From: a virus
Virus record (IMG/VR): IMGVR_UViG_3300032931_000905
Coordinates: 1-64,000 of that record
Length of the DNA stretch: 64,000 bases
Direction: 5' to 3' (one strand)
The position numbers were made by a program, and so were the translations under genes. The notes beneath the pieces were generated by a model. That model saw only the letters and a program-made list of their open reading frames with translations. It was not told the origin of the DNA and made no database searches. Every line of letters begins with the position of its first letter. Position 1 is the stretch's first letter. Below are positions 1-61,888 of this stretch, in pieces.

Positions 1-140
1 ATTCGCGGTGTTGGCTTTCGTGAATGCTGCCTGTCCAAAAACTATAGACGCATCGGCTGTGGTATTAGCGACATTGGCTTTAGCGAACGCGGCTTCCCCA
101 GTGACATTCGCGGTGTTGGCTTTGAGGTATGCTCCATTGG
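1..140. repeat. AKAN-type coding repeats, first copy
   Basis: Coding repeats of about 18-21 residues (AFAKAN-x-ANTTADA) that match those at 5608-5803 in another fibre gene. They suggest a shared shaft module or recombination between fibre genes. Confidence 0.6.
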
Positions 141-444
141 CCGTATCCCGCGCAAATTGATCGAAGGATGATCCCCCGGTGGCTTGAATGGTCAGTGTGT
201 TATTTGGGGAATCAGTCGAGAGAAGAATGCCTGCGCCGGGAACCATTCGCAAGGTATCCGAGGTGAGCGTGGCAGTGATGTTATTTTGTCCAGTGACATT
301 CACAACCCCAAAGGCATTGGCGCTGCTACCACTGGAACTAATGGAGGTAATTGGTCCGGTATGGACAATAGTAGCGGGATCAGTCTTGATGGAGACTTGT
401 TGGACCGGCGCCGGGAGGATCGTGATTTTGATATTATCTGGCAT
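1..444 (-). CDS. Tail fibre-like structural protein (3' end outside window)
   Basis: An open frame from an ATG at 444 runs off the left edge after 148 codons with no stop. The N-terminal part (about residues 1-95) is a small beta-rich head. From about residue 100 there are repeats of the type AKANTANVT / AAFAKANVANTTADA, nearly the same as those in the fibre at 3639-6269. Such alanine/asparagine heptad-like repeats usually form trimeric coiled shafts in phage fibres. It follows the 448-780 gene by 3 nt in a co-oriented tail cluster. Product identity beyond 'fibre' cannot be given because the C-terminus is missing. Confidence 0.7.
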   Translation of the reverse strand, partial: MPDNIKITILPAPVQQVSIKTDPATIVHTGPITSISSSGSSANAFGVVNVTGQNNITATLTSDTLRMVPGAGILLSTDSPNNTLTIQATGGSSFDQFARDTANGAYLKANTANVTGEAAFAKANVANTTADASIVFGQAAFTKANTAN

Positions 445-447
445 TGC

Positions 448-2722: not shown

Positions 2723-3637
2723 TTAGGTATATCCAATACAGATAAGGCTACAACAATTGCTTGCCGCATTGCTTTCTGTGAGGAAGCCAGTTGCAATGTT
2801 CAAAATAGTCGATGGCCGTGTGTTGACATTCGCCGACATGACCCCCTGTTGATGATGCTCAATGGTGGTCCCTTGTTTGATCTGGGCGACCGTTGTGGCT
2901 TGATTGCCGATGAGCACCCAGAGATCATCGTATTCGTGGATCGGAGTGGTGGCCACAATCTTCGTCGTCTTCAATCCGATTGAGTTAATGACACCAGAGA
3001 TATCGGTGGTGCCTACGACCGTTAAGGCGGAATTCCCATTGGCGATCAATTGTCCTGTGGCCAGCGCCGCCTCCGCCCAGGTAATGGTGGCGGCCGCCGT
3101 GGTGACATTATACCGGATGTTGACCCCCGCGAGCGCACAGGGAGATTTTCCCACATACATCGCCCAGGTCGTATTGGAGAACAGGGACTTAGAAGTCGTC
3201 AATGCTCCTGCTGAACACCACTCAGGAAAGGTCAAGGACGGCGCAGGCGCATCCTGGACACTAATCAAGTACGGCACACCATTCGAGTTCAGCACTTCAA
3301 ATCCACCCTGTTCTGAGTAGATCACCCCTTCACCGGCGCGTAACGAGATCGGAGAAGTAATATGAAAGTCTGTGGTACCGGTATTCTTTTTGAAGATCAC
3401 TGTGGTATTCGCGGTGCCTGACTTATTTCTCAATGACAGATATTTAATCTGACGGCATGTGGCTGATCCTGGACCAGGGACAATCGCGGTATTCGCAATG
3501 GCATTGATATTCCCCTGGGTGGAACCTGGAGTAAATGTGGTCGTGGTGAGATCCACATACGACACCTGATAGTCGATACTCACGGCCGTGCGAGTTTCGA
3601 GATTGATCGATTCTTGTGAATGATTGACAGTCAACAT
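2723..3637 (-). CDS. Structural protein, paralogue 3 of a tandem triplet
   Basis: 304 residues beginning MLTVNHSQESINLETRT. It has the same plan as its two downstream neighbours, with YVDLTTTTF, GSATCRQIKYLSLRNKS, GEGVIYSEQGGFEVL and MYVGKSPCALAGVNIRYN. The MYVGKSP segment is shared with paralogue 2 and is replaced by YIGRAPKTSK in paralogue 1. It starts 1 nt after the stop of the large fibre gene upstream. No catalytic residues are evident. Confidence 0.75.
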   Translation of the reverse strand: MLTVNHSQESINLETRTAVSIDYQVSYVDLTTTTFTPGSTQGNINAIANTAIVPGPGSATCRQIKYLSLRNKSGTANTTVIFKKNTGTTDFHITSPISLRAGEGVIYSEQGGFEVLNSNGVPYLISVQDAPAPSLTFPEWCSAGALTTSKSLFSNTTWAMYVGKSPCALAGVNIRYNVTTAAATITWAEAALATGQLIANGNSALTVVGTTDISGVINSIGLKTTKIVATTPIHEYDDLWVLIGNQATTVAQIKQGTTIEHHQQGVMSANVNTRPSTILNIATGFLTESNAASNCCSLICIGYT

Positions 3638-3638
3638 C

Positions 3639-6269
3639 TTAAAATCCTAATGACACCCGACTCATGGTTTGTTGATGGATGGTGGCCGACATGGTCGATT
3701 CCACATTCAAGGCCGAGGTGATATGTCCTGTGGTGCTGACCACATAGGTCGGAATCAAATTCGCGGTACCATAGCCCGTCGCCGTCACACCTGAGGCATC
3801 ATGGGCAATGACGCCAGTAGCCGCGGTATAGTTCACAGGGGCAGTCGCCGAGATATTCCCGCGTATCCAGACCAAGTTCGCCGTCAGGTTAATAATCCCT
3901 TTATCATTCGACACGATAATGCCACCGGCCCCGGTATTACTAATTGTCGCCAGATCGAATCCAGAATTCACCGTATTCCCGATGAGGATTTGGCCGTTGG
4001 TGATGGCGCCTAATGAACGTCCTGTGCCTCCGCGAGCGACGACCAGGTTACCTGTAATGACTGTTGACGCATCGAGGTTATTGACGGCGGAATTCGCGGC
4101 CAGCGTGATATGTCCAAAGGTATCGATGGTCACCACAGACACCGTATTGGCGCCTCCATAGATCGTGGCCGAGACGCCTGAGGTCGCATGAGTAATCACC
4201 CCGGTGCCTGGGGTATACACGATAGGGGTCGTGGCGGAGATGTTCCCGCGTATCCAGACCAGGTTCGCGGTCAGATTGATAATGCCTTTGTCGTTCGAGA
4301 CGATGATACCACCGGTCCCTGTATTCGTGACAAAGGCCAGATCGAATCCACCATTCACGGTATTCCCAATAAGAATCTGTCCATTCGTGACGGCGCCAAG
4401 GGAGAGGCCTGTGCCTCCACGGGCGAGTGCTAATGTACCCACCGTGACATTGGAGGCATCCACACTAAAGGTTTGTGTGTTGGCCTTACTATTGGCTGTC
4501 AGGGTAATCCCTGCGCCTGCCATCAGGATATCATCATAGGTCGAAGTCATGACCTGATCGTTATTCCCTGCGGTGCCTACGGCGACCAGGACCTTACCAT
4601 TCCATGCCAGACCCTTCCAGGCGGCGTCTGTTGGAGAGACTCGGACGGTCCAAGTGATCCCGTCAGGGGAGGTCATGATACGATTACCGGTGCCGGTATT
4701 GGCGACGACCACAAATTCTGTACCCGTCCATTGAACGGCCGTCCATTGGAGGGTACTCGTTGGGGTATAGCGAGAAGTCCAGTTAATCCCATCAGGAGAG
4801 GTCATCACTTGATTATTGGTACCTGAGAAGGCCACGGCGACGAAGATTTTGCCATTCCAGGTCACATCGATCCAACTGAGATCGGCCGCCGAAGTCTGAG
4901 AAGTCCAGGTCGTCCCATCGGGGGAGGTCATGACACGATTACCAGCACCTGAGGTGCCGACCGCCACAAAGAGGGACAGTTCAGGTGCCCAGACAATTGA
5001 ACGCCACGCCAAGTCTGCCGCTGGTACGCGAGTCAGCCATGTGGTGCCGTCGGTCGAGATCATGACGCCGTTGGCCACACCTGTCGCGGCGACCGCACAA
5101 AAGATATTCCCGTTCCAGGTCACATCACGCCATTGGATGCCAGGCACGGCCGCCGGTAGGGATTGCCAGGTCACCGCATTGGCCGAGATCATCACTTGAT
5201 TCGCAAAGGTGGAACTCGCCACGGCCACCAGGACATTGCCATTATACCCAATGCCGGTATAGACTACTTGTTCGGCCGCGACTCTGGCCGTCCAGTTGAT
5301 GCCTTCGGGAGAAGTCATGACCCTGAGATTCCCTGGAACCGCCGAACTATTGGAACTCACGGCTACAAAGAGATTCAGTGTATCAGCCCAGATGACTTGT
5401 TCCCAGGACACGTTGGAGGAGGGCGTTCTGTTCACCCAGTCAGAATTGCGGAATCTGGTGGAGGACACATTGATACGATTGAGGACACTATTCCCTATCA
5501 GACTGATCCCGTCACCCGCAAAGAAGGTCAGGGTGTTCGCATTGCCTGTGGCGACGATATTGGGGGAGTTGGCGATATTGATCGTGACAAAGCCTGTTTG
5601 GACAGCACCGTTGGCTTTGTTGAAGGCCGATTGGGCCAGTGTGTTGGCCAGGTTCGCAAAGGCAAATCCCGCATCGGCTGTGGTATTCGCCACATTCGCT
5701 TTGGCAAACGCGGCATCGGCTGTGGTATTCGCAGTATTGGCTTTGGCGAACGCGGCTTCGGCCGTGACATTCGCGGTATTCGCTTTGAGGAATGCTCCAT
5801 TGGCGGTATCACGGGCAATCTGGTCAATGGCCGAACCCCCAGTGGCCGTAATCGTTAATGACGCATTAGGACCATCGGTCGTGATGACGATCCCTGTGCC
5901 GTTGATGAATGTCAGGGTACTATTCGTGGAATTAGCAAGGACATTGGATTGACCAGAGACATTGACCACCCCAAAGCCGTTTGCGCCGGTTCCAGGGGAT
6001 GTTTTGAGGGACAGTTCGATCAGGTTGGTCAGATTGATCGAGGCATTATCATCGGTATAATGCTGAACGACAATATTGGCACCTGGTTTTCCGGTATAGA
6101 AAATCAGCGTGTTGGCAAGGATATTATAGTCGGTGACCGCGGTCTGAATGACCGAATTGACATAGACGTTGGAACTGAAGGGACCTTGGATGATCCCTGG
6201 ATAGAGCAGATTATAGACTGAGTTCGCTGTACCAACGAATGTTTCGGAAATGGGATTGATTTGTGACAT
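3639..6269 (-). CDS. Large tail fibre with coil repeats, propeller-like repeats and duplicated C-terminal module
   Basis: 876 residues in four parts. Residues 1-150 form a beta-rich head (MSQINPISETFVG...). Residues about 155-225 are AKANTANTTADAAF repeats, probably a trimeric shaft. Residues about 265-590 hold roughly seven repeats of a W..V.WN..FVAV / VMTSPDGxxW pattern, as in BNR/sortilin-like beta-propellers. Residues about 620-870 contain a long module (GGTGLSLGAVTNGQILIGNT ... GIINLTANLVWIRGNISAT) present twice. Propeller repeats in phage fibres usually bind carbohydrate. No sialidase catalytic set can be recognised. A late promoter lies directly upstream at 6276-6283, leaving almost no leader. 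Confidence 0.8.
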   Translation of the reverse strand: MSQINPISETFVGTANSVYNLLYPGIIQGPFSSNVYVNSVIQTAVTDYNILANTLIFYTGKPGANIVVQHYTDDNASINLTNLIELSLKTSPGTGANGFGVVNVSGQSNVLANSTNSTLTFINGTGIVITTDGPNASLTITATGGSAIDQIARDTANGAFLKANTANVTAEAAFAKANTANTTADAAFAKANVANTTADAGFAFANLANTLAQSAFNKANGAVQTGFVTINIANSPNIVATGNANTLTFFAGDGISLIGNSVLNRINVSSTRFRNSDWVNRTPSSNVSWEQVIWADTLNLFVAVSSNSSAVPGNLRVMTSPEGINWTARVAAEQVVYTGIGYNGNVLVAVASSTFANQVMISANAVTWQSLPAAVPGIQWRDVTWNGNIFCAVAATGVANGVMISTDGTTWLTRVPAADLAWRSIVWAPELSLFVAVGTSGAGNRVMTSPDGTTWTSQTSAADLSWIDVTWNGKIFVAVAFSGTNNQVMTSPDGINWTSRYTPTSTLQWTAVQWTGTEFVVVANTGTGNRIMTSPDGITWTVRVSPTDAAWKGLAWNGKVLVAVGTAGNNDQVMTSTYDDILMAGAGITLTANSKANTQTFSVDASNVTVGTLALARGGTGLSLGAVTNGQILIGNTVNGGFDLAFVTNTGTGGIIVSNDKGIINLTANLVWIRGNISATTPIVYTPGTGVITHATSGVSATIYGGANTVSVVTIDTFGHITLAANSAVNNLDASTVITGNLVVARGGTGRSLGAITNGQILIGNTVNSGFDLATISNTGAGGIIVSNDKGIINLTANLVWIRGNISATAPVNYTAATGVIAHDASGVTATGYGTANLIPTYVVSTTGHITSALNVESTMSATIHQQTMSRVSLGF
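3801..4440. repeat. Two copies of a long C-terminal fibre module
   Basis: The coding segment around 3801-4015 recurs around 4190-4440 with high DNA similarity. Both encode GQILIGNTV then GIINLTANLVWIRGNISAT. It is an internal duplication within the fibre gene. Confidence 0.6.
5608..5803. repeat. AKAN-type coding repeats, second copy
   Basis: Tandem coding repeats (AFAKANTANTTAD-type) shared with the truncated fibre gene at 1-444. The DNA similarity makes this a likely recombination point between fibre genes. Confidence 0.6.
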
Positions 6270-6275
6270 AACCCA

Positions 6276-6283
6276 TATTTATC
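6276..6283 (-). promoter_or_regulatory. Late promoter GATAAATA next to the start codon
   Basis: GATAAATA on the minus strand, followed by only 6 nt before the ATG at 6269. Transcription from it would start at or next to the start codon, giving a leaderless mRNA. Confidence 0.55.
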
Positions 6284-6288
6284 CCCGT

Positions 6289-9183
6289 TTAGGCGCCGAT
6301 AGGACCGAAGTTTTTCCAGGTGCCTGGTGATCCAGCCACCGTGCAGACAAATCCAATGTTCCCTGATGCCGCGGCATTCGTATTCCAGATGATATCATTC
6401 TTCTTCCAGATGCCTGAGGTCGGAGCCGCCGTGCCATACCCCTGGGTGGCATTCCAACTATTCAATCCAACAGAATGATAGCCATCCGTGACAGTTTCAT
6501 GAAATGGGGTGGAGACCGTGAGTGGATCACACCAGTTCCCTGTGATCTGTCCGGCCACATTGGCGGCCACATAAATGCCACGACCCAATGTACTCACATT
6601 GGCGACTTGATTGCCTTGGATACAGACGGCCACATTCGGTGAATTGGTCAGAAGACCGTAGTTGACGGTATTGTCTGTCTGATTGCCTTGCAAGAGAAGT
6701 TTTACCCCCACATTCGAAGAGGTGGTGGTGATGCCGGCACTGCCTGTTTGTGTGACGCGATTTCCGATATAGGTGGCGGATTGACCAACGATTTGGGCAT
6801 AGATACCGGAGGAGGACGTACCGGTACCGACATTGAACACAAAATTATCTTCACATTGTATGGTTTGGAAACTGTCCGTTCGGATACCTTCGTCCTGGAC
6901 ATGTGCGACACGGTTCCCGCTTACCACGATGGTGGCCGCCGCGGAGTTTCCTCCCTGACAATAGATGCCGATGCCTGTCACATTCGCCAGGATGTTATCC
7001 CGCACGACGACCCGGTTCGATGCCGAGGTCCAGATGCCATGGAGGCCTGTGGTATCAATATAATTATCATTGATCATCCCATAATCAAAGGTATTGGTCA
7101 GTTGGATACCAATCTCCTTGGTGTTTTGTACCCAATTATCCGTAACGATGATGCCTTTGCCGGCCAGGACGGCAATGCCTTCATTCCCGAAGATATCCCG
7201 CACCTGGTTCCCTCGGACACTGACGGTGGCTCTGGTGGCGGAATCCACAACGATCCCATAGGCCACACAATTCATCACGCTGTTATCCTGAATCGATAAG
7301 CTGATGAGTGTGTTTGAGGAATCGATGCCGTAATTCGCGTTACTGATCGTATTGTCGTGTATCCGGATGTCATAATGATAGGATTGATCGATGGCGGCGC
7401 CTGCCACATCCTTGATGATATTATTCAGAATAGCGACACTGGTGGCGCGAGACTGAAAGGTGATGCCTGTGCCTTCTTGTACCCCGACCCCAGTACAGAC
7501 CAACCCATCGCCGTAGGGATTGTTGGCGAGGACATTCCCTTGAATGAGAATGGTGCCACCGGCCATATAATCAGGACTCGAATTGATGGCGATGAGCGCA
7601 CCAATACCATTAGCCAGTCCGTCTACCAGGTTACCAGTGATCGAGCATCGACGACACTCGGCCTTCATCTGAATCCCACGACCGAAGCTGTCCAGGACCA
7701 CATTATCCGCGATCACCACATCCATACCGAAATTGTATGGATCAATCGCACCTAAGGTACTATTAATCTCCGAACGGCCCATGCGCTTGAGATGGTTACC
7801 GACAATGACGCCCTTCATCGTGTCATTCGTGTTCACGGCGGAGTTCGCCAGAATGACCCATCCGTCAGAAGTCACGATACCCGCACGGCCGTAGGCGACC
7901 CGATCACGCATCAGATCAAAGAAATTCCCTTCAATCACATAATTGCATGGGGTACTGATATTGACGGAGCGAGGGTCGTGTGCGGTACTGGTACCTTCCT
8001 GGCCGCCCAAAAATTTATTTCCTCGAATGATGACAAAGGTGGCAGTATTCGCGCCGGCGTCACCACCCTGCACCCCGATATCAGTGAGACACCCATTCCG
8101 AAAGGTGCAACTCTCGACGATCAACCCTGAGGTGTTGGTGAGGGTGCCTTTGGCCTCAAATCGGAGTCCTTGATTGTCGCTCGTTGCGAGTTGAATCTGA
8201 GATTGCTGATCAAAGGTAATGTGATCAAAGGCAGCGATGATGTTCGTCCCGGTGATCGTAAAGAGTGAGCCATTAAAGGCCCCAGTATTGGGGAGCATCA
8301 CGCGGGAGGACTCTCCCTGGCCTGACAGTCGAATCGTGGACTCAGAGATCGTATAGTTAGCGACATTCAGGATGTAGGTGCCCGCGAGGAGTTTCAGGGT
8401 GGTGGTATTGGCACAGGCCACCATCGCGGATTCAAAGGCAACCGTATCATCGGAAACACCGTCGCGGGTCGCGCCCCACCACTCGGTATAGGCTTCTGGA
8501 ACCGCATTGAATCCGTTTGCGGTTCCTGTTCCTGCAAAAATCTTCTTGGTTGGAGGTGCGGTGAGGGGACCCTGAATCCAGAGATTCGTGCCAGCCGATA
8601 AGAGGGCGCTACCATTGGAGGTAAAGACCAAGTGGACCGTTGGAGGGACGGTCGAGGTGGCCTGGAGCGCCATATTGGACGTGACGAAGAGGGTATTGGC
8701 ATTGGTCGTGGCCGCAGCAATCGCCGCATTCAAGGTGGGATAATTTTTGGCCTCGATGGCACCACGGAAGTTCACGGCATCGAGACTTTGAATATAGGCG
8801 GCGGTCGCATTCAATGAGGAGGTATTGCTCCGAGCGAATGTCTGAGAGGTGCCTGTCAAGGTGACCACATTCAAGGTGGTCATGGAATCCACAAAGGTAA
8901 ACTGTTGGAGTGGATTCAGTTCATTGAGATAGGGCACCATATGCACGACTTCAATGTTCGACACTCCCGTTGGAGGAGCCGTAAAGAAGGTGAGCGCCTT
9001 GCCTGATATCGCAAATGAGGATGGGGGCTGGGCGACACCAAAGATGTTGACTCGAAGCGACACGGCGCCATTGATGTTGTATCCGCCTTGGCTCAACAGG
9101 AACGCCAAGGTGGCATTATCTCCTGAGAAGTACTCGGAGTAGCTTCGAATGGCGTTTTGGTTACCAATAAATCCTGTGGCCAT
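6289..9183 (-). CDS. Tail spike with right-handed beta-helix (pectate-lyase-like fold)
   Basis: 964 residues. Residues 1-95 resemble the N-terminal attachment domain of T7-type tail fibres (IRSYSEYFSGDNATLAF ... IEVVHMVPYLNEL). Residues about 130-240 form a head module (FRGAIEAKNYPTLNAAI ... EWWGATRDGVSDDTVAFESAM) that is also found in the SGNH spike upstream. Residues about 245-880 are rich in G-N-x-V / I-x-G-N-x-I steps (IQGNVLANN, IRGNKFLGG, VRDNILANV), the signature of a right-handed parallel beta-helix as in pectate lyases and tail spikes. The last about 80 residues form a C-terminal cap. Such spikes commonly cleave or bind capsule or O-antigen. The active-site residues are not identifiable by eye. 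Confidence 0.85.
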   Translation of the reverse strand: MATGFIGNQNAIRSYSEYFSGDNATLAFLLSQGGYNINGAVSLRVNIFGVAQPPSSFAISGKALTFFTAPPTGVSNIEVVHMVPYLNELNPLQQFTFVDSMTTLNVVTLTGTSQTFARSNTSSLNATAAYIQSLDAVNFRGAIEAKNYPTLNAAIAAATTNANTLFVTSNMALQATSTVPPTVHLVFTSNGSALLSAGTNLWIQGPLTAPPTKKIFAGTGTANGFNAVPEAYTEWWGATRDGVSDDTVAFESAMVACANTTTLKLLAGTYILNVANYTISESTIRLSGQGESSRVMLPNTGAFNGSLFTITGTNIIAAFDHITFDQQSQIQLATSDNQGLRFEAKGTLTNTSGLIVESCTFRNGCLTDIGVQGGDAGANTATFVIIRGNKFLGGQEGTSTAHDPRSVNISTPCNYVIEGNFFDLMRDRVAYGRAGIVTSDGWVILANSAVNTNDTMKGVIVGNHLKRMGRSEINSTLGAIDPYNFGMDVVIADNVVLDSFGRGIQMKAECRRCSITGNLVDGLANGIGALIAINSSPDYMAGGTILIQGNVLANNPYGDGLVCTGVGVQEGTGITFQSRATSVAILNNIIKDVAGAAIDQSYHYDIRIHDNTISNANYGIDSSNTLISLSIQDNSVMNCVAYGIVVDSATRATVSVRGNQVRDIFGNEGIAVLAGKGIIVTDNWVQNTKEIGIQLTNTFDYGMINDNYIDTTGLHGIWTSASNRVVVRDNILANVTGIGIYCQGGNSAAATIVVSGNRVAHVQDEGIRTDSFQTIQCEDNFVFNVGTGTSSSGIYAQIVGQSATYIGNRVTQTGSAGITTTSSNVGVKLLLQGNQTDNTVNYGLLTNSPNVAVCIQGNQVANVSTLGRGIYVAANVAGQITGNWCDPLTVSTPFHETVTDGYHSVGLNSWNATQGYGTAAPTSGIWKKNDIIWNTNAAASGNIGFVCTVAGSPGTWKNFGPIGA

Positions 9184-9192
9184 AGTATTCCT

Positions 9193-11025
9193 TTATGCTT
9201 GTTCTAGAGCACCGACGATATTCCGATAGATGCGAGCGTGTCCAAGGACATTGGGATGGAGTCCATCGACGGTCCAGAGATCAAAGGACATTTTATCACG
9301 CGGGAACACCGCATAGTTATCAATAAAATCTGATCCGATCCGTTTCGCTTCCTTCATCAGGGAATCCCGCAATTCTTGTTGTGAAAAGGTATAGACCGTA
9401 TTGTCCTGATTCTCAACAGGTTGCGACACCATGATAATCAGATTGGAATTCGCTTTGATGTCATTGGTCAATGGTTGAAGATTTTTACGCATGCCAGAGA
9501 CACCATTCGGATTCGTTGCCACCCAGGCACGATCATTCACACCAAGCTGCATAAAGACAAAATTATCCTGGACGCCGATGGCCCGAGGAGGAGCAAAGGC
9601 ACCGGAGAGACAATTATTCAGATACACCCGCACCGCACTCCCACTGATCCCCTGATTGGTGATACGAATCTTCTTAGGGATTTCAATGGCATTGATTCGG
9701 ATCACTCTGGTGTTCGACGCTGAAGGACGGCGCGACCGGAGTTCAATCGACGCATTTCTCACATAGGAGAAGCTATGCACCCGCTTGTTGTAATTCGTAT
9801 TCGTCACGACCCCGGCATCCCCACCGAAGGCCGCGCTGGCGAACGTATTCGCCGCGACATTCACGCCATTCGCAAAGATGGTATAGTCCATATAGGTGGT
9901 GTCTTCGGCGGCATAGATCAGGTTGAAGGTATTCCCAGTGAATGGCCCAAAGACAATGGAGACATTACTACCAAAGCTGCCATCGGATTCCCCATAACGA
10001 CACTGAAAGCCACTATAGGAGAGGTCTCCCAATGGGAGATCGACCTGTGTGGAGATGGAGATGCCATTCGATTTGAACACAAAGGGTTCGACATTGGCGA
10101 TATTGGCCGCGGGATAGAGGACCTGGTTGATCGTGTATTCCGTGATGGCGTTACCGTTGGCGCCAGCGGCCGCCCAATTATAGACGACCGAGGACACCTG
10201 AGAGGTATTCCCGTTGGCATATTCTCTTCCGATATAGCGACGAAACTCATTGACATAACTTGGGGAATACTCATTATCGCGTGAGTCCGAGAGAATGCCT
10301 GCATGATTCGACGGATAATTGACATTGGCACTTTGGGGAGTCGTACTACCCCAGGTAATCGAATCTCCAATAAAGACAATAGACACGATCTGTTGGAGGG
10401 GATCGCCCAGGGCCTCTTTGAGTGCGCGAAGCTGACCACCATAGGGATGAAAGCATGGCGCAGGTTGAAAGAATCCCGCATCCACATAGCGCGTGGTATT
10501 CGCTGTGGCATCAAAGAATGTTCCGTTACGATAATCTTCGTTGATCGGCACGGCCGTCACGGAGAATGTGGAATTTCCAAGATCAATGAAATGACCAGGA
10601 CGAGCGATTTCGAGTGCGGCGAAGGCCGCGGTATCATCTGTGACACCATCACCGACGGCACCCCACCAGGCCGGATGCAGGTTGACGGCGCGTTGGAGAC
10701 CCACGACAGTACCAGAACCGATAAAGACTCGTTGACGAGGAGCGGTAAAGGAACAATTGACCGTCAAGGCGCGTGAGGTATCCAGGGTAATCAACCCACT
10801 GGTCGTGACTTCAATAGCGATATTCGGAGTGGCAATCACACTGGCCATGAGTCGGACATTGGTGGTGATCACCAGGGTATTTGCATTGACAATGGCGGCG
10901 TTGATCGCGGCATTCAAAGTCGGATAATTCTTGGCTTCCAAGGTATTCCGAAAATTGAGCGCATTGAGGGTGTTGATGACGAAGTTTTCTTCCAACATCG
11001 CACCGGAAACTTTAGTCAGTGCCAT
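9193..11025 (-). CDS. Tail spike with SGNH/GDSL esterase domain
   Basis: 610 residues. Residues 1-130 carry the head module shared with the beta-helix spike (FRNTLEAKNYPTLNAAI ... WWGAVGDGVTDDTAAF). The C-terminal two thirds is an SGNH hydrolase. Block I is SIVFIGDSITWGS with the nucleophile Ser in GDS, the GxND block is MQLGVNDRAW, and the catalytic Asp-His block is DGLHPNVLGH near the C-terminus. The inferred role is deacetylation or ester cleavage on a surface polysaccharide during adsorption. Its start overlaps the upstream stop by one base, indicating translational coupling. Confidence 0.88.
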   Translation of the reverse strand: MALTKVSGAMLEENFVINTLNALNFRNTLEAKNYPTLNAAINAAIVNANTLVITTNVRLMASVIATPNIAIEVTTSGLITLDTSRALTVNCSFTAPRQRVFIGSGTVVGLQRAVNLHPAWWGAVGDGVTDDTAAFAALEIARPGHFIDLGNSTFSVTAVPINEDYRNGTFFDATANTTRYVDAGFFQPAPCFHPYGGQLRALKEALGDPLQQIVSIVFIGDSITWGSTTPQSANVNYPSNHAGILSDSRDNEYSPSYVNEFRRYIGREYANGNTSQVSSVVYNWAAAGANGNAITEYTINQVLYPAANIANVEPFVFKSNGISISTQVDLPLGDLSYSGFQCRYGESDGSFGSNVSIVFGPFTGNTFNLIYAAEDTTYMDYTIFANGVNVAANTFASAAFGGDAGVVTNTNYNKRVHSFSYVRNASIELRSRRPSASNTRVIRINAIEIPKKIRITNQGISGSAVRVYLNNCLSGAFAPPRAIGVQDNFVFMQLGVNDRAWVATNPNGVSGMRKNLQPLTNDIKANSNLIIMVSQPVENQDNTVYTFSQQELRDSLMKEAKRIGSDFIDNYAVFPRDKMSFDLWTVDGLHPNVLGHARIYRNIVGALEQA

Positions 11026-12054: not shown

Positions 12055-15000
12055 TTATCCGTTTGATGGAATTGCAGGTACGGCCACCACTCGGAAATCC
12101 CGAATGCGCGGTACCTTTGTGGTATCCGTGGAGGTCATGACCAATTTGATCGCAAAATACTTAAAGGTCTGATAACCACCATATTGTACGATGTTCGCGG
12201 CCAGATTATCGTCGCCAGGAGCAAAGACAAATTCCTTGAAATCCGCTTGATCCAACGAAAAGAAGGAGTATCCATTGATGGCCGTCATGAGTTGATACGG
12301 CTTATCGTCAAACACATCCGTATCATCGGCCGACAAGACTTTGTAATACACATAGATATTCGCGTTGGTGGGACGATAGGCCGAGAAGTAGACGCGGAAA
12401 TCTCCAGCATCCATGCCATCCGCCAATGTCACTTTGCGCGTGATATATCGCGCCGTCGCTGGTCCACCCTTCGGTTGATCTTCCCCTTGACAGACCACGT
12501 TCGCCGAGGCGGTCGGTCCACCACCCGTCACGGTGACGGTCGGAGTGAGCGTATAGCCTGCGCCCGAGATATCCACTGTCAGACTCGTCAGCACATTGGC
12601 CACGACATTCGCAAAGGCATTCGCGGTGACCGTCGGTACCGTCAAGCTGTTCGCATTCGGGGTGATGGTCACGGACACATTCGATGGACTAAAATTCGAA
12701 TTGGAATCCGTAACCACAAAGCTGGTATTGATCAAACCAAGATTATTGATCACATTCTCGATGGTGATGATCGACATCCGTTCTTGATCCAGGACTGGAG
12801 AGACATCCTTGTGTCGTGATCCCAAGAACGCCCGAATTTTGAAACTATCAGGATTGGTCGTCAACACACGGCGGCCGACGGTATCATCAAAGAAGGTGGT
12901 CTCGTCAAGCTGCAAGGTATGCGCCGACTCAATGACCCCTGTGGACAATGGTGTGGTCAGATAGACGGAATCAAAGGTCGTATTCGATGGCATGAAGATG
13001 GAGGACATCACATGGAAGGCATCGACCGCGACATTGGAGGTAATTCTCCAGTTGGCCGTCCGATCCCCCAGGGTCGTGAGACCCATTTCCACATTCGCTG
13101 TCACAGCGGTATTAAATTCAGCAATCAACAGCTTAAAGCAGAGGTCTTCTGCCTGGATAGGTTCCCAGGTGGAAGAATTCTGAGACTTGAATAACGATCC
13201 CAAGTAGGGCTGCTGTGAGATCAAACGATTGGTGCCTAGTAATTGCTTACCCACTTCAGAGACAAAGACTTCATATTTCTGAGAGTTGGTGATAATGACC
13301 ACGGCATAATCCGTACCAGGGGACAAATAGACCGGGGCATCCCATATGATTTCCGTATAGAGGGTGGAATCTGAAAGGGGATTCGTAAAGCTGGTATTGG
13401 CGTAACGCGCCCCAATCGCCGCTTCGGTGGCTAAGGTCACCTTATCGGCGGGCACAAACACATCGGCATAGGGGATCACGGTCGCGGCATCGGGATATCC
13501 GTTGACCACTGGGCGGAGCTGCACCCGAACCGGGATGGCGGCATCCTTTGCCCGGAATAGGAGTCGGATACTGGTCGTCATGACGCCGTTGGGATGATTG
13601 CGAGCATCCACCGTAAAGGTCTGGGCCAGCGGATCAATAAAATAGGCGGAGCCTGTTTGGACCGTTCGTGACGAGGTGACCACAGAACTGTTGATGACCC
13701 TCGATTCTGTCAATGATTGACGGATGACATCAAGGGTCCGGGTCGTGAGAATCGTATCTTGTCTGGATTGGAGGATGCCAGAGGCGCTATAGGTGGCATC
13801 GCCATTGGTATAGGACTGCGTGAGTTCGCCTGTTGGAGAATCTGAGAGTCGGAATATCCGTTCCCCAGTTCGGAATGAATAATCCAGCTTCGTAGGCTTG
13901 AGGATGGTGTCCAAGCTGGTGACATCAGGAATAGCGAACACACCGGCCGCTTCCCCTCTCCAATCCGTCATGAGCATAGACACATTGGCGACCCCGGCGA
14001 CACTCGTAAACGAGGTACCAATGGTATAGGTGGATTGGGTATTTGGGAGCGTGTATCCGGTCGTACCGCCGAACGCATTGGCGCCACAGGTGACCACACC
14101 TGTGGTCGGATTGAATCGATTGAACTTCACGGTCTGTCCGGCCCCTGGTCCAGAGGTAATCGTGATCGTCTGATTGGTCAAATTGGCATAGGATGGGCCG
14201 AAGTTGGTTGAACCTAGTGCATCATGCGCCAGGAAGATCGAATTGGCATTGGCCAGCCATACAGAACCCGAACGATGCCAATAGCCTGTGATCTGTGAAT
14301 TGGCACCACTGGTATTGCCTAGGAGAAAGCGTGAACCTCCAGAGACATAGACTTCAGTGGCATAGGCATTGGAGTTCGCGGATTCCACATTGACGACCGT
14401 GATGTTGGAGTAGGTGCCTTCATTCCGATTGAAGACCACGGTGGCATTGGCCGTATAGCGAGAATTCGCTGGGTCCCAGACCCGGACTTGTTCTCCATGC
14501 TGATAGCCATCACGATAGGTGATCGTGGCATTGGCGACTTTGATCACATTGGTCAGATTGATGAATCGGTCGACATTGCGATTATCGAAGGTGACATAGA
14601 CGCGGGTGTTCGGTCTGAATCCGCCGCAGGTAAAGAGGACACCTTGTGCGCGGATATACGGGACCACAGAAATATCCACGACCTTATTACCCAGGGAGGT
14701 GGTGATCGTCGTGGGACCTAGGGAGGTGGTGATGCCTGTACGCACCTGTTTGGTGGTGATATCATCGATAAAGCGGGTGGTCGTCATAGGACGGACCCCG
14801 ACACCTCTGCCATGATGGATACGACGACCTGTGTCTTGTAGCCATGCCACCGATTCCGTTCGCTTGGTCACCCCAGTCCAATTGGTCTGCCATGAATTCC
14901 AGGTGGTACCAAAGCGAGGAGAATTGTCGACCAAATCGCTCAGAGCGGCCCAAGCATCATTATCGCCTTCGGTATTGACTAACACATCGGGCTGTTGAGT

Positions 15001-18000
15001 CGTATCGACCCAGGTATCTGATGCGGGATCGAGTTGAACTTTTCCTAGAAAGGTGACCGTATTAAATGGATTGACATTGATCGCCTTTGAAATCGAGGAT
15101 TGATCGACCAAGGTGACTTCGGAATACGGCAAGGTCACGATATCCCCGCGCTGTTGGAAATTCGTGGACGAGGAGCCGCGGAATGACAGATCGTACTTGC
15201 GCGGAATAAAGGAAGGGCGCAGTTCACGATTATCCGTATCAATAGCACAGACATGGTCTTTGTTCAAGACATCCCCGATACCATGACCTGAGAAGGCATC
15301 CACAATGATGCCGTTCTTGGGACGCGGAAATCCAAGATTATCAGTGAGTTCTGTTGCCTGGGCGGATTTCTCCAGAAGGTTCAATGACGTATAGTATTCA
15401 AGATTCTGGATACGCTGTTCCAAGACCCCAATGTCCTTCATGGTATAGCGACGATGATCGATATACTTGATATCAATATCACTCGTATTGGCGGTATAGG
15501 CCGGCAGCGTGAGTTTATAGAGGGTCATGCCTTCGGCAGAATCGGCTGGTGCCATTGGCGTGATCGAGGAAATACCTTTTTGTACGATAAATTCTTTATC
15601 CCGCGTCAAGATCACTTTATCGATGCGAGGAAGATAATACGAGAAATCTGTGGTAAAGATGGAACCTGAGGTCGGGAAATAGGTTTCCTGATATTCCCCA
15701 GTGGTATTCGCATCGATGCGGCGTGGGCGGAAATCGATGCAATCACGGAGATTGAACACTTCGCCTGTCAACGGTGAGGTATAGACGGAGATATCCGCAT
15801 AATTCACATTGGAGGTCGGATAAGAATCCACGTTGAGATAGCCGGTGCCTGTATGATTGTAGAAATCCGCATAGACCACGACATTGCCCTTGGGAGGCGT
15901 GCCGTTTGGCTTCAAGCGAATCGAGGCATGTTCATAGGCGTTATCACGCTGACCGTTATCCAGGGTATAGGACGAGGTGATATCCAGGGCCGAGGCCAAA
16001 TTCGAATGGGAGACCGCGAGCAGACCATAGTCCACCACCTTCGTGAGTTTCACCACATCGGCCACATACAAACTTTGTGGTGCATTCGGAGTCCTGAGCT
16101 TTAGGGTTTGGGTGGCATTGAGATTGCCTGAGTTCAAGAAGTGAAGCTGAAGTCCACCGGTGCTCGTATTCTGTGAACGGAGACCGATACCGGTGCCGAT
16201 GGTGACAATGGGGGTGGCCACATCAAAGTAGGTCGGATTGGCCGTGCGATAGATTTTCGACTTGCGAATACCCGCCGTGGTATCGGCCGTTGGGAAGTTG
16301 ACCTTGATATCCACATCAAAGGTGGAAGCTGATGAGTTGGGAATCGTGATCGTATAGGTCGATTGGGTGGCCGCGGAAGTCACGGTGACCGTGTTGGAAC
16401 CATCCCAGATAATGAGCGAGTTGTTCCCCAAGGTGCCACCAGACACGTTGGTCAGGACGCAACGAATGTTCTTGAAGGCATCAGAGACCGACAAGGGGGT
16501 TCCGACCACCGTGGACAAGATTCCTGCTGTGGTGGTAAATGAGATCACACCGGCCACAGCGATCTGCGAAAGCGTTTGACGACCCGTATAGCTGGTATTG
16601 CTCATGGTCACGCCACCGAGGATGGTGTTGTTGCCTACCCAATCATTCGGAAGCGGGAACAAGGAATGATTCAGATTGGTTTCATAGAGATAGGCGCTCT
16701 GATAGACATCCGCCTTCAAGGGGAGTTTGGAATAGGGCGCATAGATATCGGAGTTCGACCAGATGGCATTGAGATTGCCTGCGACAATCGACTCCGCATC
16801 GGCAAATTCATAGTCCAGGGTAAAGGTTCGCGCCGTCGAAGGCGTATTGGCAAAGGTTTTTCCTGCTTCAAGCGTGGCGGTTTTGTTGATGCCGTTGTAG
16901 GTGGCGATAATCACCGATTCAAGATTTTGGGTGGCCGTGCTACCCAAACGCAGACGCATGCCCTCATAGGCATTGTTCTGAGACGCGGCCGCCGCATCCA
17001 GGATGATCGTATTGGAGGTGCCTCCAGCCTGACACACGGCCGTCCGACTGGCAATGTTCACATCAAACACATACAAGGTATGGATGCCAGTATTGACCGA
17101 ATCTTCATGTTCCACAGATCGGACACGGAGCGAACCAATTTTGGTGGCGCCTGAGGTCGTGGTCGTCAGGGTATTGATCGAGGCATTAGAGACGCAATGG
17201 ATCGTGAGTGGTTCCAGCGTTTTGGTATAGAGTGAGCCGCGGGTGTTGGCCACATAGAGATAATTCTTGAAGTCCATTGACAGTGGATAGCTTCGCACAT
17301 TGGCGACATCGCGGGCCCGCTCAGACTTGATCGACTGGGTCGAGATGGTTTCATGCTCAAATCCCTGGACATAGGCTTTTCCTGGGTCCAGCAGGATGGT
17401 GTACGCATTGGCATAGGTGGCATCATTGGTCAAGGCCAGACGGAACTGCTTGACCGTAAACGATCCTGATTGATCATTGGTGCGTCGAGCCAGGGTCCGT
17501 TCAAGATCAGAGAGTTGCGGATAGGTAATCGCTTTGATCAAGGCGCCATTAGCGACCCGAACCAATTCCACAAACAACGAATCGTCTTGACTGTCCAGGG
17601 ACCGCTTGGCCAGCGTCAATTCCATGTTATAGCGCGTGGCGCCAGGGGCTTGATAGTTGCTGGAATTCAATGCCGGATCACGGAGCGAGGAATCTTGGGA
17701 TTCTGTGATGACGGTTTCATCCAATTGAAGTCCGATACGATAGGACGGCGTATTGGCATGGGCATCCAGGACCACCGTCTGTTCTGGGCAATGCACAAAG
17801 AGATTGTTGATAAAGAAATAGCCATCGTTGATCGAGCAGATCGAGGTATTGGAGACCGCAGAGGCCAGATTCACATTGGCCTTGAAATTTCCGGTATCAG
17901 TGGTCAGGGTTTGGCCGAATGTGGTGTTGTCGAATTCTTCTCCGGTCACATACTTGATGATCAGACATGGGGGCGCGGTATTGGTGGCATCGACGGTCGC

Positions 18001-18327
18001 GGCCACATAGGCGCGCACATTCCCGGCGACAGAGGTGATAAACTTCCCCTTGAAGGTGGCCAGATCGATAGCGACGGTTTGATAGGTGGGCTCCACGTTC
18101 AAGGCAAAGACGTTCTTGATTTCAATAAGGGTTTGCCCGCCCGAGACAGGTGATCCATCCTTGAAAATGTGACGACCAAAGGCCGCGACCTGATTTTGCA
18201 GCAATGTCTGGATTTGTGTCAGTTCTCGCGCCTGGACGGCGTAGTTGGGACGAAACAGGAGACGATAGAAGTTCTTGGTGGCATCAAAATCGTCATAATA
18301 TGGGTTCTGCCCGAAGTCTATGGCCAT
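12055..18327 (-). CDS. Giant DUF4815-type virion structural protein
   Basis: 2090 residues, the largest gene in the window. The N-terminus (YYDDFDATKNFYRLLFRP then QARELTQIQTLLQNQVA and GRHIFKDGSPVSGG) matches the DUF4815 domain that begins very large baseplate/fibre proteins of cyanophage-type T4-like phages. The remainder is beta-rich, with a C-terminal part containing a GAGYTLTPTVTVTGGG-type motif. It stands where T4 has gp9-gp10, downstream of gp8. A peripheral baseplate or long-fibre role is inferred. Its start overlaps the stop of the GIY-YIG gene by one base. Confidence 0.85.
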   Translation of the reverse strand: MAIDFGQNPYYDDFDATKNFYRLLFRPNYAVQARELTQIQTLLQNQVAAFGRHIFKDGSPVSGGQTLIEIKNVFALNVEPTYQTVAIDLATFKGKFITSVAGNVRAYVAATVDATNTAPPCLIIKYVTGEEFDNTTFGQTLTTDTGNFKANVNLASAVSNTSICSINDGYFFINNLFVHCPEQTVVLDAHANTPSYRIGLQLDETVITESQDSSLRDPALNSSNYQAPGATRYNMELTLAKRSLDSQDDSLFVELVRVANGALIKAITYPQLSDLERTLARRTNDQSGSFTVKQFRLALTNDATYANAYTILLDPGKAYVQGFEHETISTQSIKSERARDVANVRSYPLSMDFKNYLYVANTRGSLYTKTLEPLTIHCVSNASINTLTTTTSGATKIGSLRVRSVEHEDSVNTGIHTLYVFDVNIASRTAVCQAGGTSNTIILDAAAASQNNAYEGMRLRLGSTATQNLESVIIATYNGINKTATLEAGKTFANTPSTARTFTLDYEFADAESIVAGNLNAIWSNSDIYAPYSKLPLKADVYQSAYLYETNLNHSLFPLPNDWVGNNTILGGVTMSNTSYTGRQTLSQIAVAGVISFTTTAGILSTVVGTPLSVSDAFKNIRCVLTNVSGGTLGNNSLIIWDGSNTVTVTSAATQSTYTITIPNSSASTFDVDIKVNFPTADTTAGIRKSKIYRTANPTYFDVATPIVTIGTGIGLRSQNTSTGGLQLHFLNSGNLNATQTLKLRTPNAPQSLYVADVVKLTKVVDYGLLAVSHSNLASALDITSSYTLDNGQRDNAYEHASIRLKPNGTPPKGNVVVYADFYNHTGTGYLNVDSYPTSNVNYADISVYTSPLTGEVFNLRDCIDFRPRRIDANTTGEYQETYFPTSGSIFTTDFSYYLPRIDKVILTRDKEFIVQKGISSITPMAPADSAEGMTLYKLTLPAYTANTSDIDIKYIDHRRYTMKDIGVLEQRIQNLEYYTSLNLLEKSAQATELTDNLGFPRPKNGIIVDAFSGHGIGDVLNKDHVCAIDTDNRELRPSFIPRKYDLSFRGSSSTNFQQRGDIVTLPYSEVTLVDQSSISKAINVNPFNTVTFLGKVQLDPASDTWVDTTQQPDVLVNTEGDNDAWAALSDLVDNSPRFGTTWNSWQTNWTGVTKRTESVAWLQDTGRRIHHGRGVGVRPMTTTRFIDDITTKQVRTGITTSLGPTTITTSLGNKVVDISVVPYIRAQGVLFTCGGFRPNTRVYVTFDNRNVDRFINLTNVIKVANATITYRDGYQHGEQVRVWDPANSRYTANATVVFNRNEGTYSNITVVNVESANSNAYATEVYVSGGSRFLLGNTSGANSQITGYWHRSGSVWLANANSIFLAHDALGSTNFGPSYANLTNQTITITSGPGAGQTVKFNRFNPTTGVVTCGANAFGGTTGYTLPNTQSTYTIGTSFTSVAGVANVSMLMTDWRGEAAGVFAIPDVTSLDTILKPTKLDYSFRTGERIFRLSDSPTGELTQSYTNGDATYSASGILQSRQDTILTTRTLDVIRQSLTESRVINSSVVTSSRTVQTGSAYFIDPLAQTFTVDARNHPNGVMTTSIRLLFRAKDAAIPVRVQLRPVVNGYPDAATVIPYADVFVPADKVTLATEAAIGARYANTSFTNPLSDSTLYTEIIWDAPVYLSPGTDYAVVIITNSQKYEVFVSEVGKQLLGTNRLISQQPYLGSLFKSQNSSTWEPIQAEDLCFKLLIAEFNTAVTANVEMGLTTLGDRTANWRITSNVAVDAFHVMSSIFMPSNTTFDSVYLTTPLSTGVIESAHTLQLDETTFFDDTVGRRVLTTNPDSFKIRAFLGSRHKDVSPVLDQERMSIITIENVINNLGLINTSFVVTDSNSNFSPSNVSVTITPNANSLTVPTVTANAFANVVANVLTSLTVDISGAGYTLTPTVTVTGGGPTASANVVCQGEDQPKGGPATARYITRKVTLADGMDAGDFRVYFSAYRPTNANIYVYYKVLSADDTDVFDDKPYQLMTAINGYSFFSLDQADFKEFVFAPGDDNLAANIVQYGGYQTFKYFAIKLVMTSTDTTKVPRIRDFRVVAVPAIPSNG

Positions 18328-18848
18328 TATATCCTCTTTCCTAGTCTATTTTGATTACCCAATTTAGCGACTCTCATTTTTTGTTTTGTGGCTTCTGAGT
18401 GAATACGACCAGTTGCCGCTGTTCTTATCTTGTCCTTGGATTCTTTGGTATGATGCCATCTCTTACCAAACATATGATTGTTGTTTCCTGTTTGGTTTTG
18501 ACCGAGGCCTCGTCTTATGGCCGATCTTCTGAGCTTGTCTCTGACCTCAGGACTAGGATCGAGTAAACCATCACCACCCCTGGTCATATTATACTCAGGT
18601 TTGAACACTTCAATGAGAAGTGGCTCAGCCAATGTCAGTCCAGCCTGATGATCCTCTCCTTGGCACAACACACTCAATAAAAAGCTTTCTGTCCCGTATT
18701 TCTTTATTGCGGAATATAATAATGATTTTCTTAAACTATTCAACGCATAGTATTTATGATCGATCCAACGATCCGTAGGTAACTGGGTCGTAAACCCTAT
18801 GTATTTCTTGTCGTTTAACTTATTTTGTATCTGATAAATGTAGTACAT
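18327..18848 (-). CDS. GIY-YIG homing endonuclease
   Basis: About 173 residues from the ATG at 18848; an in-frame ATG at 18884 would overlap the gp8 gene. The GIY-YIG core is YYIYQIQNKLNDKKYIG with conserved DRWIDHK and the acidic LAEPLLIEVFKPEYN block. It is followed by a NUMOD3-like DNA-binding region (NNHMFGKRWHHTKESKDKI). This is a free-standing endonuclease inserted between gp8 and the DUF4815 gene. TATAAATA lies 5 nt before the chosen ATG and contains the gp8 stop codon, so it has its own late promoter and probably a leaderless transcript. Confidence 0.88.
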   Translation of the reverse strand: MYYIYQIQNKLNDKKYIGFTTQLPTDRWIDHKYYALNSLRKSLLYSAIKKYGTESFLLSVLCQGEDHQAGLTLAEPLLIEVFKPEYNMTRGGDGLLDPSPEVRDKLRRSAIRRGLGQNQTGNNNHMFGKRWHHTKESKDKIRTAATGRIHSEATKQKMRVAKLGNQNRLGKRI

Positions 18849-18853
18849 GCCTA

Positions 18854-18861
18854 TATTTATA
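18854..18861 (-). promoter_or_regulatory. Late promoter TATAAATA of the homing endonuclease
   Basis: Perfect TATAAATA on the minus strand. It overlaps the TAA stop of gp8 (18857-18859) and ends 5 nt before the ATG of the endonuclease. Confidence 0.6.
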
Positions 18862-20224
18862 CAAGATTCAATAAGATAGAACACAAAGCAAAGGCGAACT
18901 TTACGACCAGCTTGACATTTTCGGCATGGGCGGCACTTCGGGTCACAGGGAGCCGATTTTCAAGATAGACCATTGATCCGCTGTCTTGGTCGAGATCGGG
19001 TGGCGTCGAACTGACCAGAATACGACTGGTGCCTGAGGTCACTCCGATGATCGCTGATCCGACCTTGGCAGCGCCACGAATGGCCGTGACATTGAAGGCA
19101 TTCGAAAACAAATCAGTGATATACCCGGTAAAGGTCGCATTGGCGCCAGCATCCGTTCCTTGATAGACGAGTTCATCGGCCAGGTAACCTGCACCGGAGG
19201 TCACGACGATCTGTGTCAAAAAGGAGAACGCCACGTTTGCATTGGCCGAGACCACCGCGACATTGGTGGCATATTTATGGGGTCTCAGGACCAAGCCGAT
19301 CTGACGAAATTCGTTATTTGAGGTAATCTTTCCTCCCTCGGTCGCATCCCCTGTGGCGCCGATTTGGACGGAGATCATACACGCATTGGCCCCCAGTTCA
19401 CGGGCAGGATTGAACGCATGACCCCGATAGGGCGAACCAATGACGCGCACGTTGGCCCCTGTGCCTGCACCAAAGATGGAGACATTCAGACCTGCATGAT
19501 AGCCAGAACCTCGATTGACCAAGTTCAGGGCCGTGATCACCCCGTTGGCCACGGTGGCCGTGACATTTGCGCTGGTCCCTTCTCCAGACACGACGACCCT
19601 GGTGGTATTCGCCACATAGCCCGTGCCTCCAGAGGTCAGGATCACTTGAGAGATGGCGCCAGAGACGGCATTATTTGCGGTTCCGGTATAGGTCGCATTT
19701 TGATCTGAGGGAATAGGCATCCAGGAGGTGGTCGAAAACTTTGAACTGACAGGCACCTTATAGAGATACTTCCAGACATAGCCATCACCCAAGGGAGAAC
19801 TGAATCCATTATTGACCACATAGGCCGTGCTGGGTTGTACGGTCGAAGGGGCATTGTTGGCATTATCAATACATTTATAGACTTCATTGGTCGCCGTGAT
19901 GACATACATGGAATTGGTCGAATTGAACAGTGTAGTCGATTGATCATCATATTCGGTATAGACCACAGCCGAGGTCCATGTGATGCGTGGTATGACCAGA
20001 AACAGATCGGCCCCTGTGATGATTTTGCCTCCGAGCAGATAGGAATACGCATCGGCCACGGTCGCATCATTATCCACGACTTGTGGAGGGGCGGCATCAT
20101 TGGCCCAGGGGGTATGTCGACCAATCGTGACATAACCTACGACAGAGGCGTTGGCCCCTAGTGCGGTGGCGAGATTGAAGGCTTGTTCATACCCCAAGGT
20201 ACGAGGAGTCAGCGTGGTGGCCAT
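18857..20224 (-). CDS. 8: Baseplate wedge subunit gp8-like
   Basis: 455 residues (T4 gp8 has 334). It has the cyanophage-type gp8 pattern: DLFLVIPRITWTSAVVYTEYD, then YVITATNEVYKCIDN and DGYVWKYLYKVP, followed by gene-specific insertions with GAGTGANV repeats. It lies downstream of gp6 and the gp7-like gene, in T4 order. The last about 12 residues (FALCSILLNLV) look like read-through into sequence belonging to the inserted endonuclease; the native C-terminus may have ended near VKLVVKF. A late promoter is at 20249-20256. Confidence 0.8.
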   Translation of the reverse strand: MATTLTPRTLGYEQAFNLATALGANASVVGYVTIGRHTPWANDAAPPQVVDNDATVADAYSYLLGGKIITGADLFLVIPRITWTSAVVYTEYDDQSTTLFNSTNSMYVITATNEVYKCIDNANNAPSTVQPSTAYVVNNGFSSPLGDGYVWKYLYKVPVSSKFSTTSWMPIPSDQNATYTGTANNAVSGAISQVILTSGGTGYVANTTRVVVSGEGTSANVTATVANGVITALNLVNRGSGYHAGLNVSIFGAGTGANVRVIGSPYRGHAFNPARELGANACMISVQIGATGDATEGGKITSNNEFRQIGLVLRPHKYATNVAVVSANANVAFSFLTQIVVTSGAGYLADELVYQGTDAGANATFTGYITDLFSNAFNVTAIRGAAKVGSAIIGVTSGTSRILVSSTPPDLDQDSGSMVYLENRLPVTRSAAHAENVKLVVKFAFALCSILLNLV

Positions 20225-60670: not shown

Positions 60671-60744
60671 TGGTCGACCCTACAGGTTACGCTCCTGTCT
60701 CACCGCAATGTCAATGCGGTATTCTGCTAATGAACTAAGGGTCG
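60671..60744 (-). tRNA. tRNA-Val (GAC)
   Basis: Acceptor CGACCCT/AGGGTCG with encoded CCA; anticodon arm CCGCA-TTGACAT-TGCGG. The T-loop AGCGTAA deviates from the usual TTCRANT. Confidence 0.8.
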
Positions 60745-60747
60745 TTG

Positions 60748-60823
60748 TGGTCTGCCTGGAGGGATTTGAGCCCCCATCCTCCCGGTTCGAAGCCGAGTAG
60801 TCTTCCAGTTGACGTACAGGCAG
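60748..60823 (-). tRNA. tRNA-Arg (TCG)
   Basis: Acceptor CTGCCTG/CAGGCAG plus ACCA; anticodon arm CTCGG-CTTCGAA-CCGGG. Confidence 0.85.
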
Positions 60824-60846
60824 TCTAGATCAAAAAATCTTTCCAT

Positions 60847-60873
60847 GCGTAGATTACACGGTCTATTCTACGC
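60847..60873. other. Small hairpin between tRNA genes
   Basis: GCGTAGA ... TCTACGC, 7-bp stem with a 13-nt loop, in the 59-nt gap between two tRNAs. Possibly a processing element. Confidence 0.35.
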
Positions 60874-60882
60874 AAACCTTAT

Positions 60883-60957
60883 TGGTGCCACGGGTGGGAT
60901 TCTAACCCACGTTGTCCCGCTTAGGAGGCAGGTGCCTGTACACTAGGCTACCGCGGC
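60883..60957 (-). tRNA. tRNA-Arg (CCT)
   Basis: Acceptor GCCGCGG/CCGTGGC plus ACCA; anticodon arm CCTGC-CTCCTAA-GCGGG; T-arm GTGGG-TTAGAAT-CCCAC. Confidence 0.88.
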
Positions 60958-60961
60958 GTTA

Positions 60962-61037
60962 TGGACTCGCTGGTGGGATTCTCACCCACAACCTTCCAGG
61001 TAGAAACTGGAAATGCAAATAATTACACCTCAGCGAG
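60962..61037 (-). tRNA. tRNA-Arg (TCT)
   Basis: Acceptor CTCGCTG/CAGCGAG plus TCCA; anticodon arm TCCAG-TTTCTAC-CTGGA; T-arm GTGGG-TGAGAAT-CCCAC. Confidence 0.87.
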
Positions 61038-61042
61038 ATATT

Positions 61043-61117
61043 TGGTGCTCCCAGAGAGTATCGATCTCTCTTTTCCTGGTTGAGAACCAGGCGAACTAGC
61101 CAGTATTCGATGGGAGC
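61043..61117 (-). tRNA. tRNA-Glu (CTC)
   Basis: Acceptor GCTCCCA/TGGGAGC plus ACCA; anticodon arm CCTGG-TTCTCAA-CCAGG; T-arm GAGAG-ATCGATA-CTCTC. Its first 22 nt overlap the 3' end of the 61096-61527 gene. Confidence 0.85.
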
Positions 61118-61527
61118 GTATTATGCGTCGGCCAATAATATGGCAGGTCCGTTGGCTCGACCCAATGAAACTGCCCGTAATACTTTGGGTCTTTTCTCAA
61201 TAAGTTACTTCGGTGTGCGCTATGAAATTGCTCAGAGTTGTGCCAAGGTGGATAGACAACAGGGCACTCAACGACATATAAGGGCATGTTATTGTTATAC
61301 CCTCGACTTATCCATTCCTCGATGCAGGTATTCACATACAATTTCAGCGCATGTTCATACCCCTTCCACATCAACACCGCAGGATGATTTTTCCATCCTT
61401 GCTTTGCAGACGGATTCAACAACACATTCAAAATCTGCATTCCTTCGACTCGTTGTTTTCCTAACCGACGATAATCTAAGGCTTGCACAGATTTCTTAAA
61501 AGAGGGGTAGGGCAAAAATGTTTGCAT
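61096..61527 (-). CDS. MSMEG_6728-type protein (pyrimidine-dimer glycosylase superfamily)
   Basis: 143 residues. The family start is MQTFLPYPSFKKSVQALDYR, then RLGKQRVEGMQILNVLL, GWKNHPAVLMWKGYEHALKL and EEWISRGY. Such proteins are assigned to the T4 endonuclease V-like (Pyr_excise) superfamily and may act on damaged DNA. The canonical N-terminus fixes the start at 61527, only 5 nt after a consensus TATAAT, so its mRNA is leaderless. The stop codon lies inside tRNA-Glu. Confidence 0.83.
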   Translation of the reverse strand: MQTFLPYPSFKKSVQALDYRRLGKQRVEGMQILNVLLNPSAKQGWKNHPAVLMWKGYEHALKLYVNTCIEEWISRGYNNNMPLYVVECPVVYPPWHNSEQFHSAHRSNLLRKDPKYYGQFHWVEPTDLPYYWPTHNTLPSNTG

Positions 61528-61532
61528 GAGAG

Positions 61533-61561: not shown

Positions 61562-61575
61562 GTGCTATTATAAAT

Positions 61576-61880: not shown

Positions 61881-61888
61881 TTTCATTG

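Follow-up and report, generated by a model that had tools for sequence, protein, structure and literature searches.

The window analysed here covers positions 1-64000 of a viral record 89,020 bases long and carries on its minus strand the two neighbouring spike-like proteins described by an earlier sequence-only reading. Their ORFs, designated Spike A and Spike B, and the parts referred to below are as follows.

6289..9183, minus strand: Spike A, ORF of 964 aa, right-handed β-helix tailspike-like protein
8929..9183, minus strand: A residues 1-85, adaptor-like β-sandwich N-terminus (remote likeness to the T7 tail fibre N-terminus)
8416..8793, minus strand: shared module in A, residues 131-256 (identity to B residues 17-141; shuffles)
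8434..8481, minus strand: joint motif in A, WWGATRDGVSDDTVAF, residues 235-250 (from the sequence)
6292..6441, minus strand: C-terminal module of A, residues 915-964 (likeness to phage tail proteins)
9193..11025, minus strand: Spike B, ORF of 610 aa, End_N-like region plus predicted SGNH esterase
10978..11025, minus strand: B residues 1-16, MALTKVSGAMLEENFV, possible attachment peptide (the only sequence before the module)
10603..10977, minus strand: shared module in B, residues 17-141 (identity to A; AF2 strands)
10621..10668, minus strand: joint motif in B, WWGAVGDGVTDDTAAF, residues 120-135 (overlap of two homology ranges)
10465..10659, minus strand: End_N region (endosialidase-type) of B, residues 123-187 (PF12218, E 6.2e-5, below cut-off)
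9196..10428, minus strand: predicted SGNH esterase body of B, residues 200-610 (Pfam, AF2 and structure comparison)
10360..10362, minus strand: Ser222 (GDSITWG), probably catalytic (Ser in 20/20 SGNH rows)
9535..9537, minus strand: Asn497 (LGVND), block III (20/20 SGNH rows)
9256..9267, minus strand: Asp587 to His590 (DGLH), block V (Asp and His each in 20/20 SGNH rows)

The gene immediately upstream of A and B (12055-18327) encodes a DUF4815/VrlC-type protein with relatives in many phages, including cyanophages and Pelagibacter phage Mosig, and ORF 18860-20224 matches a baseplate wedge family. Judging from these neighbours, A and B look to be located in the baseplate/fibre region of a T4-like myovirus. 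The nearest relative contig (L003), whose VrlC-like protein is 92% identical, includes a B ortholog as far as its residue 219 (79% identity) and stops before A could appear. A homing-endonuclease-like ORF (18327-18884, minus strand; phrog_314, E 1.2e-24; GIY-YIG family phrog_5123) lies between the wedge and VrlC-like genes and overlaps the 3' end of the former. At the start of the record, three tandem minus-strand paralogues of unknown family (816-1775, 1780-2796 and 2723-3637; 30-32% mutual identity over ~300 aa) were noted, two of them having no Pfam match and the middle one no PHROG match. They are followed by a fibre-like ORF (3639-6269, minus strand) with repeats that look β-propeller-like by eye; a fibre fragment cut by the record end (1-447, minus strand) is 57% identical to it over 133 aa. 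A minus-strand stretch (60671-63965) encodes eleven tRNAs and a tmRNA, the latter with a 29-residue predicted tag peptide.

Spikes A and B share a genuine module: residues 131-256 of A and 17-141 of B are identical at 55 of 126 positions (44%; BLASTP, E 3e-21), a similarity that the sequence-only reading had claimed and whose absence it had named as evidence against itself. The local score of the block was 272, against a maximum of 61 in 1000 shuffles of the A block, and after removal of the WWGA motif region it was still 198 against a shuffle maximum of 68; at the DNA level the two copies are 74% identical over 81 bases. In an all-versus-all comparison of window ORFs of at least 60 aa (E 1e-4), the A/B pair was the sole match linking either spike to another ORF, and the module profile matched A and B only, both in the window and in the whole record. 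The remaining pieces of the two proteins matched each other at E 1.1 or worse (BLASTP), and Pfam assigned one β-helix body (A, PF13229) and one SGNH body (B, PF13472/PF00657), which bears out the proposal of unrelated catalytic parts behind a common block. A tree of 30 rows grouped A, B and the B ortholog together (85/46; recovered in 88% of bootstrap trees). That A and B share the module through a duplication in this lineage is likely, though not firm given the weak tree support.

The block had further been called a head, in the sense of a virion-binding part. Its position agrees with that description in B, where it stands near the N-terminus after 16 residues, and disagrees in A, where ~130 residues precede it. 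Among bacterial genomes, the module profile reached three contigs (L075, L076 and L077) of 64 pattern matches; the L075 and L077 proteins have hydrophobic, signal-peptide-like starts as read by eye, and both match pectate-lyase-like PF12708 after the module, L077 below the cut-off. In viral contigs, 45 matches to the pattern yielded 23 loci, among them the relative already known. The WWGA motif of the 22 others is placed anywhere from residue 33 to residue 798 of the ORF; a profile lacking the WWGA end matched 14 of them at E 0.01, and the remaining eight match near the WWGA motif only. Three proteins (L133, L134 and L135) contain three or more copies of the module, and PF12708 starts at the joint motif in three of the eight module proteins scanned (L128, below the cut-off, L130 and L142). 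Searched alone against phage records, the B module gave only WWGA-region matches in four Acinetobacter phages, and the A module gave none. The 87-aa minus-strand ORFs of L104, L106 and L107, which matched the profile without the WWGA end at E 0.001-0.009, were taken as chance.

The AF2 model of B is confident in the module (pLDDT 92-97 for the blocks spanning residues 31-110) and displays one helix followed by regularly spaced short strands; a β-helix reading of the module is drawn from its sequence context and this strand pattern. The structure-match rows span B residues 200-610, and the list includes no β-helix match for the barely covered residues 1-200. A phage-specific attachment domain placing both spikes at the same type of site would be consistent with the restriction of the module to A and B within the record and with the 88% of bootstrap trees that place A and B together with the B ortholog. 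We consider that reading very improbable and have rejected it, since the module also occurs in bacterial proteins with signal-peptide-like starts, is found far into other proteins or repeated within them, can have PF12708 directly after it, and is not N-terminal in A. From these contexts and the strand pattern, the most fitting interpretation of the shared block is a generic lead-in to a pectate-lyase-type β-helix, ending in WWGA-x-x-DGVxDDT, and annotating this block as a virion-binding head domain should be avoided. A second case of module-sharing neighbours was observed in an unrelated viral contig (L130), whose adjacent ORFs 3411-4679 and 4788-6506 both carry the module; one runs on as a PF12708 β-helix, and no family convincingly matches the other.

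In A, the body following the lead-in was identified by Pfam as Beta_helix (PF13229, E 3.4e-19, 69.5 bits, cut-off 25.9), with additional matches to NosD (E 1.6e-11) and to the tail spike family phrog_7458 (E 5.6e-18). A PDB sequence search with A found nothing, and phage records and viral contigs held no close relative of its body; only the C-terminal part matched, its module being ~51-54% identical to segments of tail proteins from Rhizobium, Vibrio and Bacillus phages. The N-terminus of A is 37-39% identical to those of two ORFs in another contig (L066), one of which matches PF03906 at 3.5e-4, below the cut-off; A itself has no PF03906 match in Pfam. A suggestive-looking alignment of the N-termini of A and of fibre 3639-6269 was not accepted, the profile comparison giving a probability of 7.7%. 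A may plausibly be a polysaccharide depolymerase.

In B, the PF12218 match scored 23.1 bits, below the cut-off of 26.3, and the relative in phage Holyagarpour passes with 29.4 bits. The End_N region also matched 4hiz and Dpo31, and profile A4 matched 28lx and endosialidase chains. The body is an SGNH/GDSL hydrolase by Pfam (PF13472, E 3.8e-13, 50.7 bits, cut-off 32.9; PF00657, E 7.6e-8, 33.2 bits, cut-off 23.6), with a β-rich insertion of ~160 residues (~295-457) separating the first SGNH block from those that follow. The SGNH block scheme comprises the conserved Ser, Asn, Asp and His of blocks I, III and V and the Gly of block II. Ser222, Asn497, Asp587 and His590 are intact in B, and G459 is kept in 18 of the 20 SGNH rows, with Ala in the other two (L087 and L088).

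A single-sequence AF2 model of B was useless (mean pLDDT 30.9), and a 31-row alignment raised the mean pLDDT to 79.6 with a pTM of 0.67. The alignment designated A5 took in 18 of the 41 B-body loci described below plus the L003 ortholog (L098 among the 41), and 7 of the 22 module loci other than our own. In the resulting model B adopts the SGNH fold: the top solved structure in Foldseek was the peptidoglycan O-acetylesterase Ape1 (E 4.8e-14), followed by family 2 carbohydrate esterases, and VIA-align, with rows spanning residues 200-610 only, matched an acetylated-mannan esterase at Z 20.4. On the strength of the intact SGNH residues and the model matches to O-acetylesterases and to the G7C tailspike gp63.1, B is likely a deacetylating spike, and the likeliest function predicted from the model is that of a polysaccharide O-acetylesterase. 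SGNH-domain receptor-binding proteins are described as frequent in Klebsiella prophages, two of them being confirmed esterases (PMC13123978).

The body of B is common to spikes of P. putida phages from several groups. Homology to these spikes starts at residue 114-121 and continues to the end of B, and the likeness to A stops at residue 141, so that the two ranges overlap in the WWGA-GDG-DDT motif. Scanning viral contigs with the B body yielded 41 loci, including 12 ORFs with the full body besides the B ortholog; two of the 12 (L096 and L100) are near-identical and tf-like. None of the 12 full-body ORFs in these contigs carries the module, and their N-termini are different ones, which indicates from sequence that the esterase body is joined to different front ends across phages, with a breakpoint at WWGA-GDG-DDT. 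Single-protein scans of viral contigs with A and B as queries returned no relatives. One viral contig (L102) contains two adjacent ORFs, 4305-6569 and 6710-8467, that both have the SGNH body.

How the two spikes are attached bears on the branched receptor-binding system suggested earlier. A branched complex as in G7C or KP32, in which A is anchored and B docks on A or a neighbour through a short N-terminal peptide, is possible, though we would put it on the unlikely side. Its appeal lies in the N-terminal domain of A and in the resemblance of the short B peptide to Klebsiella second spikes: a recognisable adaptor-like N-terminus is present in A only, and in B the module is preceded by only 16 residues, possibly an attachment peptide, which begin MALTKVSG and are kept in the L003 ortholog in the form MALTKVTGSMLEDNFV. 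The second spikes of Klebsiella phages reportedly have no anchor and instead bear a short peptide (MALxxLV in KP34 viruses) that is conserved and has been proposed as the part docking on a T4 gp10-like domain (PMC6872550). Against such an arrangement, Pfam detected no T4 gp10-type docking domain in A or in fibre 3639-6269, and PF07880, a model covering only the N-terminal part of gp9/gp10, had no match in the 89-kb record, which may be a fragment. A PDB sequence search with the fibre gave only weak matches to unrelated molecules. The shared module lends the branched complex no support, because it is not a docking domain.

Taken together, the data are probably best explained by two neighbouring receptor-binding tailspikes of a T4-like myovirus, in which a generic β-helix lead-in is joined to different bodies at a common motif. 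Both spikes contain a lead-in of the pectate-lyase-type β-helix ending at WWGA-GDG-DDT. In A the lead-in continues into the β-helix body, which would probably act as a polysaccharide depolymerase or serve for binding; in B an End_N plus SGNH unit, known from unrelated phages, is attached at the same motif. The most likely role of B would be O-deacetylation of a surface polysaccharide, with Ser222, Asp587 and His590 as the catalytic residues. Both spikes are presumably trimeric; A may be attached by its N-terminal β-sandwich, and B either by its short N-terminal peptide or by sitting on another spike.

The sequence-only reading had gone further and let both enzymes act on one polysaccharide. 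In such a putative series, B would strip the acetyl groups that block A and A would then cut the chain. The different bodies are indeed encoded side by side, and deacetylating and lyase spikes are described as interchangeable between G7C and Alt63 (PMC10743462); multi-spike phages can, however, use separate spikes for separate hosts, as reported for KP32 on K3 and K21 (PMC6872550), and we regard serial action as unlikely. Quite improbable, in our estimate, is the scheme in which the WWGA-GDG-DDT lead-in is a universal plug in one phage, onto which different catalytic bodies (β-helix and SGNH) are grafted, the two resulting spikes first deacetylating and then cleaving one acetylated glycan. In our preferred explanation of two tailspikes with a common lead-in, A and B form a fairly ordinary phage spike pair of an already known type, since the connecting piece that they have in common is a widespread lead-in to sugar-cutting folds and not a virus-attachment part.

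Compared with known systems, the secreted and phage PF12708 proteins with a WWGA lead-in (L075, L077, L130 and L142) have the same lead-in and joint motif as A and B, but their modules are only ~24-41% identical to that of B, and a β-helix follows the joint where B has an SGNH body. The SGNH core of Campylobacter jejuni Ape1, a cellular enzyme, was aligned to the B model at Z 19.5; over the whole Foldseek alignment the fit (rmsd 18 Å) is too poor to support a matching arrangement of domains. G7C gp63.1 (4qnl), an SGNH deacetylase tailspike, matches the B model at Z 17.5 (rmsd 3.4, 211 aligned). G7C is an N4-like podovirus that, like the phage studied here, has a second spike (gp66); according to PMC6872550, gp66 bears a T4 gp10-like docking domain, whereas none was found here with Pfam and PF07880. 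The tailspikes of Pseudomonas phages tf, Holyagarpour, PlaquesPlease, Waldo5 and Stamos combine End_N with the SGNH body and have the same insertion as B (30-37% identity over ~490 aa). They differ from B in their N-termini, which are of the T7-tail type (PF03906) in PlaquesPlease, and in an extra C-terminal stretch that B does not have. The esterase body is seen behind differing front ends in phages of very different kinds, the breakpoint being WWGA-GDG-DDT, and an uncultured T4-like phage joins those with a predicted SGNH esterase spike.
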